In this document: positions 33,808 to 38,305 of the stretch, one piece after another
How positions within the stretch are numbered: position 1 is the first letter of the stretch
Layout of the letters: every line of letters begins with the position of its first letter
Origin: Terribacillus sp. FSL K6-0262
GTDB lineage: Bacteria; Bacillota; Bacilli; Bacillales; Amphibacillaceae
Reading direction: 5' to 3'
Assembly (NCBI RefSeq): GCF_037977385.1
Contig: NZ_CP150277.1
Span: 1,837,001 to 1,901,000 of the forward strand
Length of the DNA: 64,000 nucleotides
Program-made: the position numbers and the translations under genes
Notes under the pieces: generated by a model
The model's database searches: none
What the model was told of the DNA's origin: nothing
The model's input: only the letters and a program-made list of their open reading frames with translations

Positions 33808-33858
33808 TACGGAAGCCGGTGATCTTCTGGCCAATGTTTTAAATTGGAGATGCTTTAT

Positions 33859-34989
33859 GTGTTATCTAAGATCAAAGAGGTAGATAAAACATTACTGTTT
33901 TTCATCATATGTATCTGTTTATTCGGCTTGATCATGGTATATAGTGCCAGTTATCCGTTGAGTTCTGTTAAATATGACGTATCAACCTATTTTTTCCATC
34001 GGCAGTGGATATCTTTTTTGATTGGCCTGTTTGCTATGTCTGTCGGTTTTTTCTTACCTTACAAGCTATACCGTCAATGGAATCCGCTTCTGGTCATAGG
34101 ATCCATACTGGTTTTGATCCTCGTCCTCACACCTTGGTTTGGAGAATCGAGGAATAATTCCCAGCGTTGGCTGGAGTTAGGTCCTGTCACCCTGCAGCCA
34201 GCTGAATTCGTTAAGTTTACGATGGTCGTTTATTTTGCATCTGTGTACGGAAAAAAACAAAAATTGCTTACTAGTTTTAAAGAGGAAGTTCTCCCCCCGC
34301 TCTTGCTGCTAGGTACGGTATTCGTGCTCATACTCATGCAGCCGGACTTGGGGACTGCTACTTCCATCGCGATTCCCTGTTTCTTTATCCTGCTTTGTGC
34401 CGGCATCAAACTGCGTCATCTGCTCGCAATAGCTATGGTCGGTATTGGCGCTGTCATTTATTTAGCGGTATCTGCACCTTACCGGTTGGCACGTGTCTTA
34501 TCCTTCCGGGACCCATTCAGTGATGCTGATGGAAAAGGCTATCAGCTGATCAATGGATATGAAGCCATTGCCTCAGGAGGAGTGTTTGGGAAAGGAATAG
34601 GGGGAGGCGTGCAAAAGCTAGGATTTCTTCCTGAAGCCCATACAGACTTCATCATGGCGGTGATTCTGGAAGAGCTGGGGACATTTGGATTGGCAGCGGT
34701 GTTCTTCCTATATTTCAGTCTTTTAATAAAAGGGGTATACATAGCTTTGCGGGCGGAGGATTCTTTTGGGACCCTGCTTACTATCGGATTTTTATTTCAG
34801 ATAATGGTACAGGTAGTTTTCAACTTGGGTGCGGTTTCCGGTCTTTTGCCCATAACAGGGATCCCATTACCCTTTATAAGCTATGGTGGTTCCTCTTTGA
34901 TAGTGAATCTGTTTACGATGGGCATTATTTTACAGATATCAAGGCATTCAAAGCAATATAGCATTTCCCTGGCGGAAAGAAGGCGTTAA
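33859..34989 (+). CDS. SEDS peptidoglycan polymerase, FtsW/SpoVE-like (first of tandem pair)
   Basis: Membrane glycosyltransferase that polymerises lipid II. 376 residues with ten helices: FGLIMVYSASYPL in helix 1, SQRWLELGPVTLQPAEFVKFTMV (about 112-134) with the conserved catalytic-loop region, MQPDLGTATSIAIP, and GKGIGGGVQKLGFLPEAHTDFIMAVILEELGTFG followed by the helix 9-10 signature GLLPITGIPLPFISYGGSSLI. Three in-frame starts exist (TTG 33844, ATG 33850, GTG 33859); GGAGA at 33846-33850 best suits GTG 33859. Two bases separate it from a second SEDS gene; two SEDS genes in one operon is uncommon. Confidence 0.88.
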   Translation: MLSKIKEVDKTLLFFIICICLFGLIMVYSASYPLSSVKYDVSTYFFHRQWISFLIGLFAMSVGFFLPYKLYRQWNPLLVIGSILVLILVLTPWFGESRNNSQRWLELGPVTLQPAEFVKFTMVVYFASVYGKKQKLLTSFKEEVLPPLLLLGTVFVLILMQPDLGTATSIAIPCFFILLCAGIKLRHLLAIAMVGIGAVIYLAVSAPYRLARVLSFRDPFSDADGKGYQLINGYEAIASGGVFGKGIGGGVQKLGFLPEAHTDFIMAVILEELGTFGLAAVFFLYFSLLIKGVYIALRAEDSFGTLLTIGFLFQIMVQVVFNLGAVSGLLPITGIPLPFISYGGSSLIVNLFTMGIILQISRHSKQYSISLAERRR

Positions 34990-34991
34990 AT

Positions 34992-36164
34992 ATGTTTTTA
35001 AAGAGATTGCGCTTAGGCGAAATCGATAAGGTAATCCTTACCATCGTATGTTTGCTGTGCGGAATCAGTATTTTATTCATTTACAGCACGCAATCCGGAG
35101 GTCAATTTGGCAGTCAGAACTTTGCGCTGAGGCAATCCATCAACTATTTGATAGGCTTTGCCCTATTATTATTGTTCAGGCTATTGGATTTGAATCAGCT
35201 TCGATTACTGGCTTGGCCATTCTATATTGTTTCGGTGCTGTCTCTACTTTTCCTGACTATCGCTCCAGAGTCGATAGCCCCTGATATATTAGGTGCCAAA
35301 AGGTGGTTCAGCATTCCGCTTGTGGGCTCTGTCCAGCCATCGGAATTTTTCCGGATCGCATTGATTTTGTTGACAGCTAAATTGATATATGATCATAAGG
35401 AAAAACATCCCAACCACGAAATGAAGGAAGATTTACTGCTTTTGGGCAAGATATTACTAATTGCCATTCCGCCTAGCTTGCTGGTTTACCAGCAGCCTGA
35501 TACTGGTATGGTGATGCTTTATATATTTGCCATAGCAGCGATGCTCGGGATGATAAAACTGAATAAGGTTGTAGTGGGTATAGGCATCTTGGTACCAATG
35601 CTGCTCGTCGGTATGATCGTTTGTTTATTTCTCTTTAAACCAGAGATAATTTACGAGGATGTCATACCGAAGCTGAAGCCCCATCAGCAGGAACGGATCA
35701 TTGGCTGGCTGGATCCGAGTGATAACCGCAACCAAGCTTTTCAAAGCTCAAGATCTGTCTTGGCAGTCGGAACAGGTGGTTTGACGGGGAAAGGGATAGA
35801 AGGAGGAAACGTGTATGTACCGGAGAAGCATACTGATTTCATCTTTGCATCCATTGCGGAGGAAGGTGGGTTTCTTACCGGATCGGCAGTCATTCTGCTC
35901 TTCTTCCTTTTGATAGGGAGGATCATGGAGATAGGGTCGAAGACGAAGGATACCTTCGGAACCTTTATATGTGCAGGTTTGGCATTAAGCCTGACAATCC
36001 AGATCGTACAGAATATCGGGATGGTGGAAGGAATGCTGCCGGTAAAAGGCATATCCCTCCCTTTCTTGACATATGGAGGCAGCTCTCTATTCTCTAATAT
36101 GATTCTATTGGGGATGGTCATGTCCGTGCGGAATACATATGCCCACCAGTTCTTCAGCAAGTAA
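34992..36164 (+). CDS. SEDS peptidoglycan polymerase, RodA-like (second of tandem pair)
   Basis: 390-residue ten-helix lipid II polymerase. Landmarks: ISILFIYSTQSGGQFG, AKRWFSIPLVGSVQPSEFFRIALI (about 98-121), YQQPDTGMVMLY, GTGGLTGKGIEGG...VPEKHTDFIFASIAEEGGF and GMLPVKGISLPFLTYGGSSLF. The large extracellular loop (KPEIIYEDVIPKLKPHQQERIIGWLDPSDN) is typical of RodA. Translationally coupled to the first SEDS gene. Without a class B PBP gene next door the partners are unknown; roles in sporulation, stress or a second elongasome are all possible. Confidence 0.88.
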   Translation: MFLKRLRLGEIDKVILTIVCLLCGISILFIYSTQSGGQFGSQNFALRQSINYLIGFALLLLFRLLDLNQLRLLAWPFYIVSVLSLLFLTIAPESIAPDILGAKRWFSIPLVGSVQPSEFFRIALILLTAKLIYDHKEKHPNHEMKEDLLLLGKILLIAIPPSLLVYQQPDTGMVMLYIFAIAAMLGMIKLNKVVVGIGILVPMLLVGMIVCLFLFKPEIIYEDVIPKLKPHQQERIIGWLDPSDNRNQAFQSSRSVLAVGTGGLTGKGIEGGNVYVPEKHTDFIFASIAEEGGFLTGSAVILLFFLLIGRIMEIGSKTKDTFGTFICAGLALSLTIQIVQNIGMVEGMLPVKGISLPFLTYGGSSLFSNMILLGMVMSVRNTYAHQFFSK

Positions 36165-36178
36165 AATATTTCAAATTA

Positions 36179-36207
36179 AAAAGCCTGCAAACGCATTGCA
36201 GGCTTTT
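36179..36207. terminator. terminator between SEDS operon and SDR gene
   Basis: 12-bp stem AAAAGCCTGCAA/TTGCAGGCTTTT with a 5-nt loop, T-run on both strands; serves convergent genes. Confidence 0.85.
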
Positions 36208-36214
36208 TTCCGAT

Positions 36215-36958
36215 TTATTGAGCCAAGTATCCGCCATCCACTACAAGCGTTTCGCCAGTTACGAAGTCGTTTTCAGTCAAGAATACGATAGCGTGTGCAA
36301 TTTCGCTCGCTTTACCAAGACGGCCGATTGGGTGTTTTGCAACGAGTCCATCGTAGAAGTCGCCAAGAGCTTCTTTGTTCACCATGCCGGATTCGACAAA
36401 GCCTGGATTGATAGCATTTACACGGATTCCTTTATCGCCATATTCGACTGCAAGGGATTTAGTCAATGTATTGACTGCACCTTTGCTGGCATTGTAAGAG
36501 AATGCGCCAGGCTGTGCCACGAATCCAAGTACAGAAGAGGTATTGATGATTACACCGCCGCCTGATTTCAGCATTTCCTGAATGGCGAATTTGGAAGCCA
36601 GGAAGATACCATCCTGATTGACTGCAATCACTTTGCGGTATTCCTCGTAGGATAGTTCATGAGTCGCACCCATGCCTCCGATACCAGCATTATTTACAAG
36701 AATATCGACTTGGCCGTAGTGTGCCACTGTTTGATCGATCAAGCTTTTGATCGAATCTTCGTCGGCAGCATTGAATGGAATGAATAAAACATCGCCGCCA
36801 GCGGCTTTCAATCTTTCTGTTTCCCTTTGGCCTGCTTCAGCATTATAGTCTGCAAGGACTACTTTGCCGCCTTTATTCACATATGCTTCAGCAGTGGCAA
36901 GACCAATACCGGATGCTGCCCCAGTTACGATTGCTACTTTCCCCTCGATTGTTGCCAT
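36215..36958 (-). CDS. SDR-family oxidoreductase
   Basis: 247-residue classical short-chain dehydrogenase: TGAASGIGLATAEAY (12-26), ADYNA (Asp after beta-2, favouring NAD), NNAGIGG near 89, catalytic Ser in NTSSVLG near 141 and SYNASK near 156-161, C-terminal VDGGYLAQ. Related to 3-oxoacyl-ACP reductase/glucose dehydrogenase-like SDRs; substrate unknown. Single-gene unit; a second, similar SDR is encoded at 38.7 kb. Confidence 0.85.
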   Translation of the reverse strand: MATIEGKVAIVTGAASGIGLATAEAYVNKGGKVVLADYNAEAGQRETERLKAAGGDVLFIPFNAADEDSIKSLIDQTVAHYGQVDILVNNAGIGGMGATHELSYEEYRKVIAVNQDGIFLASKFAIQEMLKSGGGVIINTSSVLGFVAQPGAFSYNASKGAVNTLTKSLAVEYGDKGIRVNAINPGFVESGMVNKEALGDFYDGLVAKHPIGRLGKASEIAHAIVFLTENDFVTGETLVVDGGYLAQ

Positions 36959-37095
36959 TGTTCTCTACCCCCATTTTATTAGGTAATTTAACCTGCTACT
37001 TTATGATGAACTTCTTGCTTTAACAAGTCAAGGAATTGACACAATCTTAAAAATAGAAGTAAAAAAGGGATTGGTTGATAGGCGGCACTCCCCCT

Positions 37096-37192
37096 TGATC
37101 CACACACTTATACACAACGGTCTCGTATGATGGTCATTATCCACATGTGGATAATGGTGAATGTCTAAGGAAGCTAAATCCCATTATCCACG
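37096..37192. other. cluster of five DnaA-box-like nonamers
   Basis: In the 425-bp gap 36959-37383, five sites match the DnaA box TTATCCACA within one base: TGATCCACA (37096-37104), TTATACACA (37108-37116), TTATCCACA (37137-37145, perfect), TGTGGATAA (37146-37154, perfect, opposite strand) and TTATCCACG (37184-37192). The two perfect boxes abut head-to-head in a 22-bp palindrome. No dnaA, dnaN or AT-rich unwinding region is adjacent, so it is not an obvious oriC. Clusters of this kind titrate or activate DnaA in Bacillus and Escherichia coli. The rest of the gap holds only an ACCGTC...GACGGT hairpin near 37265-37292. Confidence 0.65.
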
Positions 37193-37383
37193 ATTTGCTG
37201 GGGATATCTTATAAAATCTTGTTTATTGTCATATCTGATCGATGCTCCTCCGGGATAAAGAAAACCGTCAAGCTGGAAAGCAAGACGGTCTTGGATCAGT
37301 CAGTGAATACTGTCAAACAAGCTGCTGAGACGCACATATTTAATGGCTTTTATCCCTTAGTGTCACCACTTCACTTAGAGCTG

Positions 37384-37596
37384 CTATGATTGTTCTTTGG
37401 ATTCAGCTTTAACTGCTGCTGCGCGTTTTTTCGCTTTTCGGTATAGCAGTGTCCCTGCCAAGCCATAAACAAGGCCGAGCACCAATGATGCAACGCCGAT
37501 ATAGAATTTATCGCCAGCCCAAATCATGATACCTATTCCTGCGAGGATACAAAGCAGCCCGAGAAAGAGGAGGTAAAGGGCGTTCTTCATTAACAT
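37384..37596 (-). CDS. small membrane protein, unknown function
   Basis: 70 residues with two hydrophobic helices (LYLLFLGLLCILAGIGIMIW and FYIGVASLVLGLVYGLAGTLLY) and a basic, Ala/Lys-rich C-terminal tail. GGGAGG precedes ATG 37596 by about ten bases; the frame is open to 37614. No family recognised with certainty. Stands alone beside the DnaA-box cluster. Confidence 0.65.
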   Translation of the reverse strand: MLMKNALYLLFLGLLCILAGIGIMIWAGDKFYIGVASLVLGLVYGLAGTLLYRKAKKRAAAVKAESKEQS

Positions 37597-37819
37597 AAAT
37601 AAACAGCCTCCCAATAAGCGGTTAAACTTGTACTATTATAACAGAAAGCCGCTCCGATTTTATGTGTTATCTGTTAAACTGCGGACTTTCCGATATAATG
37701 GCGGTAATGCAGACAGCGAGGCGCGACAGCGTTGGAGCCAAGATCCATTCTTGTCATGCGGGAGGGATCCAAGGGGCCGGTGAGCAGGATTTACATAAAA
37801 GAAGTGAAGGAGCGGTTGG

Positions 37820-38305
37820 ATGATGAAAGAGCTGTCTGAGGCAATTCGTTTAAGAGAAGCAGGGAATCTGACGGAAGCTAATGAAAGATTGGTCAAGTTG
37901 GCTGCAGCTTATCCAAATGACGCGGATGTGAACTACCAGTGTGCATGGAGCTTTGATGTACTTGGGCAGGAAGCTGCTGCTGTGCCTTATTATGAACGAG
38001 GGATTGCCCTGGGATTACCAAAGAAGCACGAGGAAGGAGCTTATTTAGGGTTAGGAAGTACATATCGGACATTGGGAAACTATAAAAAAGCTGAGCAAAT
38101 TTTGGGCAGGGCAATGAAGCTGTTCCCGGAAAATAATGTTTTTCCTGTTTTCTACGCTATGGTGCAATATAATCAAAAAGAGCATGGTAAAGCGATGCGT
38201 ATTCTTCTTCGGCTGCTGGCAGAAACAACCTCGGATCGAGATATCATGGAGTATCGAAAGGCAATTGCTTTTTATGCGGATAAGCTGGATGATGTCTGGA
38301 GTTGA
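37820..38305 (+). CDS. tetratricopeptide (TPR) repeat protein
   Basis: 161 residues, all-helical, with three TPR-like units: EAIRLREAGNLTEANERLVKL, CAWSFDVLGQEAAAVPYYERGIAL and GLGSTYRTLGNYKKAEQILGRAMKLFPEN. Resembles small TPR proteins found widely in Bacillaceae, whose partners are mostly unknown. No signal peptide or membrane segment. RBS AAGGAG lies before ATG 37820; ATG 37823 is an alternative. Confidence 0.75.
   Translation: MMKELSEAIRLREAGNLTEANERLVKLAAAYPNDADVNYQCAWSFDVLGQEAAAVPYYERGIALGLPKKHEEGAYLGLGSTYRTLGNYKKAEQILGRAMKLFPENNVFPVFYAMVQYNQKEHGKAMRILLRLLAETTSDRDIMEYRKAIAFYADKLDDVWS

Follow-up and report, generated by a model that had tools for sequence, protein, structure and literature searches.

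A candidate DnaA-binding site of Terribacillus that lies in a coding 3′ end and has outlived its gene

Introduction

Clusters of DnaA boxes outside oriC are thought to affect the timing of replication in Bacillus-type bacteria. Such clusters are known in Bacillus subtilis, as the original prediction for the present locus stated; there are six, and their joint removal leads to early initiation (PMC5295017 and PMC13220808, available sections). A review states, in the sections available, that B. subtilis clusters with significant roles comparable to those of E. coli have not been identified (PMC5295017). The regions that bind DnaA strongly in vitro include gcp/ydiF, trmE/jag, and yydA. Eight regions, most of them with 7–12 boxes, are strong binders; binding to regions with two to five boxes is weaker by a factor of several or more, and at the rplB site, with two boxes inside the gene, binding in vivo was undetectable (PMC4447404, available part). 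In E. coli, datA acts together with IHF (PMC5742627, available part). IHF, datA, and the DARS loci are reported to be absent from B. subtilis in the available text of PMC13220808.

Here, we describe a Terribacillus locus where a cluster of DnaA-box-like sequences can be traced inside a protein gene, in which it has apparently fixed synonymous codons, and was then left behind after the gene decayed. The locus lies in the window, which denotes the whole 64-kb stretch of DNA analyzed (1,837,001–1,901,000 of a genome consisting of a single contig of 3,346,030 bp). What is new is a candidate site within a coding 3′ end that has outlived its gene, and none of the papers in the collection searched combines "DnaA box" and "Terribacillus". 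The site is far smaller than the strong clusters of B. subtilis. If DnaA binds it, this single 18-bp sequence, located in ten genomes, would provide a clean test of whether a small remote site matters for initiation.

Results and Discussion

Anatomy of the box cluster

The locus occupies a gap of 425 bp (36959–37383) flanked by two minus-strand reading frames, an SDR gene and a small membrane-protein ORF (Table 1). A nonamer scan of the window found five DnaA-box-like nonamers with at most one mismatch within 97 bp, two of them perfect and abutting head to head, and thus reproduced the coordinates of the original prediction. The perfect boxes form the 18-bp core, TTATCCACATGTGGATAA, of a longer palindrome. 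The TTATACACA box lies 29–42 bp before the palindrome in all ten Terribacillus genomes, and its bases are V-Y-K codons in the relatives, so protein constraint acts there too. A counterpart of the TTATCCACG box, TCATCCACA, is present in six of the nine relatives, and the TGATCCACA box is absent from the corresponding position in the nine relatives compared. About 45 bp beyond the palindrome, the GGGGATATC block is kept in 10/10 genomes and belongs to a 13-nt invariant run in the relatives.

Table 1. Features of the locus, in window coordinates
Feature	Position	Strand	Remarks
DnaA-box-like TGATCCACA	37096..37104	+	one mismatch
DnaA-box-like TTATACACA	37108..37116	+	fits consensus TTATNCACA
Perfect palindrome, 22 bp	37135..37156		core 37137-37154 = two exact TTATCCACA, zero spacer
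Exact DnaA box TTATCCACA	37137	+	left half of head-to-head pair
Exact DnaA box TTATCCACA	37146	-	right half of head-to-head pair
DnaA-box-like TTATCCACG	37184..37192	+	one mismatch
GGGGATATC block	37200..37208		unchanged across window and nine relatives; no DnaA box
Decayed GH13 3′ end	37105..37236	-	approximate limits of alignable remnant; alignment with nine relatives
SDR gene	36215..36958	-	downstream of element; NCBIfam subfamily "glucose 1-dehydrogenase", above cut-off
Small membrane-protein ORF	37384..37614	-	upstream of element; start codon uncertain; counterpart in 9/9 relatives

Density of boxes and distance from oriC

The cluster exceeds chance expectation, as had been claimed. The whole 64-kb window was simulated 200 times with a first-order Markov model; the highest count of nonamers with at most one mismatch in any 97 bp was one in 147 simulations and two in the other 53, compared with five in the real sequence. 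The background of the window is itself enriched, with 32 such nonamers versus 16.9 expected from shuffles. Genome-wide, there are 175 matches to the consensus TTATNCACA and 67 copies of the exact TTATCCACA (20 for the reversed-pattern control). Two exact boxes lie within 200 bp of each other at five places, counted from the exact TTATCCACA list: three in the dnaA–mnmE zone, the studied locus, and 2,174,563. Recurrence of such clusters by chance at many loci is thus not what the genome displays; these density statements refer to exact TTATCCACA copies and the pair pattern.

The genes gyrB, recF, dnaN, dnaA, and mnmE are found at 1,675–1,690 kb, which places oriC 192 kb away from the cluster. 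The locus does not belong to oriC, and the prediction was right that dnaA and dnaN are not nearby. In the six of ten genomes that carry the locus and oriC on one contig, the distance was 192.4 (G000), 173.3 (G001), 174.6 (G002), 212.3 (G003), 168.5 (G004), and 193.0 kb (G009). The similarity of these distances is not independent evidence because gene order is conserved.

A phage or plasmid origin was rejected because searches of the phage and plasmid collections gave no match at E 1e-5. An RNA element was likewise rejected, since both Rfam matches were far under their gathering scores. No tRNA was found in the window, and the two terminator-like sites in a scan of 36100–38000 both lie outside the gap.

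The cluster lies in the 3′ end of a GH13 gene in relatives

The locus had been described as isolated and intergenic, which applies to the window genome alone. In the nine other Terribacillus genomes compared (the genus search covered ten, including the window genome), the same stretch belongs to the coding sequence of a GH13 glucosidase gene, at its 3′ end (Pfam alpha-amylase; NCBIfam PRK10933 subfamily, alpha,alpha-phosphotrehalase, above cut-off). In all nine, the SDR gene and the small membrane-protein gene flank it, and about 130 bp of it is alignable in the window genome. In-frame stops occur in the GH13 frame of two relatives, one in G006 and six close together in G003, where the frame resumes further on (L054, L057). 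Both genomes have matches to all 560 query residues despite the stops, and gene damage and sequencing error are both possible.

The 18-mer TTATCCACATGTGGATAA is identical at the locus in 10/10 genomes, amid DNA that for the most part cannot be aligned; the concern that the cluster might not be conserved in close relatives is thereby removed. In the alignment of the locus across the nine relatives (3,700 ungapped columns), the palindrome is the longest invariant run, at 20 nt, followed by two runs of 14. It encodes N-Y-P-H-V-D in the relatives, and the neighboring residues of the tail vary. Six consecutive codons are identical across all nine; when codon identity was simulated 20,000 times with the rates of the gene itself, a run of at least six appeared in 78 cases. 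Among the degenerate, amino-acid-invariant codons of the aligned stretch, 72 of 353 are codon-identical in all nine relatives; within the gene proper, the values are 51/156 for twofold and 10/92 for fourfold codons. The nine relatives fall into three groups, with identities of 72.9–77.7% between and 86.8–97.3% within groups, and for this reason are not independent witnesses.

Retention in the remnant was counted over columns invariant in the nine relatives only, and it reflects one full gene loss. The four boxes within the counted stretch (TTATACACA, both palindrome boxes, and TTATCCACG; the fifth, at 37096, lies outside it) kept 33 of 35 such columns versus 36 of 63 outside them (one-sided Fisher p 5e-5). 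The palindrome by itself kept 18/18, versus 51/80 elsewhere in the remnant (p 8e-4). That the palindrome is intact after decay of the GH13 gene suggests that the site matters in its own right. Retention of the GGGGATATC block, which is no DnaA box, weakens a purely DnaA-based reading a little.

If nothing were selected, the cluster would be a relic of GH13 codons that happen to resemble DnaA boxes and whose decay is pending. Coding for N-Y-P-H-V-D could hold the palindrome through protein constraint, the gene was lost only once, and the GGGGATATC block was kept in the same way. However, synonymous positions are fixed in the nine relatives to the extent simulated above, retention in the remnant is biased, and the residues adjacent to the motif vary. 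The motif is also missing from GH13 tails of other genera: the 10 C-termini read, out of 75 fetched from outside the genus, had neither NYPHVD nor the box pair. We therefore judge the relic explanation improbable.

Our preferred reading is that the locus is a genus-specific DnaA-binding site of Terribacillus; we assign a probability of about 0.8 to a DnaA-binding site under selection. The sequences establish how the locus is built, that it is conserved, that the gene has decayed, and that its geometry recurs at oriC. The reading as a DnaA site is further weakened by the overlap of the TTATACACA box with conserved protein residues and by a second exact copy of the 18-mer, which directly follows a -10-like sequence and so has the placement of an operator.

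Head-to-head pairs at oriC and elsewhere

A search of the ten genomes for pairs of the form TTATNCACA-N0-4-TGTGNATAA returned 37 sites, and the reversed control returned none. Ten lie upstream of dnaA, ten at dnaN/yaaA, ten at the studied locus, and seven before a PHP-domain gene. The 20 oriC assignments were read directly in five genomes and made by matching the 2.9–3.0 kb spacing in the other five; in G002, the oriC stretch read covered the dnaN/yaaA pair only. The dnaN/yaaA pair has the same 18-bp, zero-spaced, head-to-head geometry as the studied locus in 10/10 genomes, with one box varying at the N of the DnaA consensus TTATNCACA. The oriC region differs in having further boxes and the dnaA/dnaN context; the studied locus is 168–212 kb away in the six genomes measured.

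The second exact 18-mer lies at 2174563–2174580 in G000 (L003 5064–5081), between a nucleoside-hydrolase-like gene and the PHP-domain (HisJ-family) gene, just after a -10-like TATACT by our own reading. This copy is exact in seven of ten genomes and has one central base changed in the other three. With two mismatches, 5–8 sites per genome were found (0–3 for the reversed control). Outside the genus, 149 family genomes were searched, and 8 of them contain the exact 18-mer. Of the nine occurrences, four fall between dnaN and recF, two beside mnmE, and one each at rlmN, tdk, and proC/acyl-CoA synthetase, the last three named by reading translations. At four places in other genera (L036, L039, L050, and L051, around 1501–1518), the 18-mer sits within longer inverted repeats flanked by runs of A and of T and resembles a terminator stem; those in L036, L050, and L051 are at the dnaN end.

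These distributions bear on whether the palindrome could be the operator of an unknown dimeric regulator, with a half-site that matches the DnaA box by accident. Such an operator would suit the perfect symmetry, the presence of two exact sites per genome in 7/10, the 5–8 sites with two mismatches, and the three genomes that keep the outer 8+8 bases at the PHP gene with the center changed. It sits poorly with the zero-spaced geometry at dnaN/yaaA in 10/10 genomes, where the variation falls at the N of TTATNCACA, and with the other genera, in which six of nine places are by dnaN/recF or mnmE. We consider an operator unlikely, with slightly better prospects than a codon relic.

A different possibility is that DnaA regulates transcription locally, coupling the SDR gene, and in the relatives perhaps also the GH13 transcript end, to the replication state but leaving initiation timing unaffected. 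Local control of the SDR gene is possible and is the main alternative to a sink role. In its favor, about 180 bp separate the site from the SDR start downstream, the second copy is, as we read it, preceded by the -10-like TATACT and followed by the PHP-domain gene, and DnaA activates sda in B. subtilis (PMC4447404, available part). On the other hand, the distance from the palindrome to the SDR start varies among genomes, G001, G002, and G004 have a different promoter region, and promoter-like matches around the SDR gene numbered 3 versus 3.7 in shuffles. The odds are thus against local control, but it is the most credible of the rival explanations.

Comparison with DARS, datA, and the B. subtilis clusters

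The original prediction had also likened the cluster to DARS and datA, and neither comparison was supported. At the positions that we take to be those of DARS1 and DARS2 in E. coli K-12, the core box offsets are 14 and 12 at both, versus 9 for the Terribacillus pair. A DARS element has three core boxes at conserved spacing, with box I opposite to II and III, and this arrangement was not found at the Terribacillus locus, where no third box lies at 12. The arrangement read at the E. coli places agrees with that in the available part of PMC5742627. The Terribacillus boxes resemble those of DARS1 and DARS2 in being oppositely oriented and facing each other, and DARS is described as having head-to-head contact of DnaA at boxes I and II (PMC5742627, same part). 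Nevertheless, given the offsets and the reported absence of DARS loci from B. subtilis (PMC13220808, available text), an element that releases ADP from DnaA in the manner of DARS is highly improbable. The locus is like datA as a DnaA-box cluster outside oriC and a candidate sink, but datA works together with IHF (PMC5742627), and B. subtilis is reported to have neither IHF nor datA (PMC13220808), both as far as the available text goes.

The likeness to the B. subtilis clusters is closer in kind: both are groups of chromosomal boxes outside oriC and possible DnaA sinks, and the five nonamers in 97 bp, 192 kb from oriC, are several close boxes beyond chance. The six strong B. subtilis regions outside oriC have 4–11 boxes (PMC4447404, Table 1, available part), whereas the Terribacillus locus has fewer good ones, 3–5. 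The locus also differs in being centered on a zero-spaced head-to-head pair and in lying inside the 3′ end of a gene in relatives. It is not among the 20 regions of the PMC4447404 table, in a comparison made by name alone and within the available part of that source.

The window genome has further groups of nonamers. Seven lie at ~1,144.3–1,144.5 kb (L157 2818–2990) between tsaD(gcp) and ABC-F(ydiF), genes that also flank a known cluster in B. subtilis. Three lie upstream of mnmE. Nine lie within ~310 bp after an HtrA-like protease gene at ~1,718.9–1,719.2 kb (L005 1906–2215), 37 kb from oriC. The names HtrA-like, tsaD(gcp), and ABC-F(ydiF) were assigned by reading.

A possible role in initiation timing

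As a candidate DnaA-binding site, the locus could act as follows. DnaA would occupy the head-to-head pair, and the third good box, TTATACACA, 29–42 bp away, would complete a locus centered on the perfect pair. Because it lies ~170–210 kb from oriC, the locus would be duplicated early, soon after initiation. The doubled passive sink would then lower free DnaA and damp re-initiation, as proposed for the B. subtilis clusters.

The original reading of the cluster as a DnaA-titration site stands insofar as it fits a conserved, rare box locus outside oriC; the titration role itself is one that we infer. From the analysis as a whole, we give even odds to a sink or initiation-timing role of the Terribacillus locus. 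This role is weakened by the weak binding of few-box regions in B. subtilis and by the undetectable in vivo binding at the two-box rplB site (PMC4447404, available part).

More speculatively, and with little expectation that it is correct, the zero-spaced head-to-head pair may be a distinct control module of this lineage, present at oriC, on its dnaN side, and at two loci far from it. Two DnaA molecules placed face to face would be unable to join a head-to-tail filament, and the pair could serve for capping or nucleotide exchange, as a Gram-positive counterpart of DARS function. Selection on it would have fixed the codons of the host gene and outlasted that gene.

FtsW/RodA genes near the locus and near DnaA boxes

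Two tandem FtsW/RodA/SpoVE-family genes occupy 33844–36164 of the window. The second tandem gene has 33–40% identity to the matches listed in other genera and is absent from the locus in G002; in G008, no FtsW/RodA gene adjoins the locus up to the contig end. In B. subtilis, rodA lies close to vpr. A link from the locus to B. subtilis ywcI-vpr via FtsW/RodA genes was considered and failed, since the boxes there are those of the known gcp/ydiF cluster. FtsW/RodA had a match in 138 of 156 family genomes, and among 20 neighborhoods read, picked mainly from the top of the match list, three had at least three TTATNCACA in 250 bp. These three and one with seven scattered boxes were inspected (L169, L171, L180, and L184; gene names from translations), and each of the four has its FtsW/RodA gene flanked by gcp and ydiF, beside DnaA boxes.
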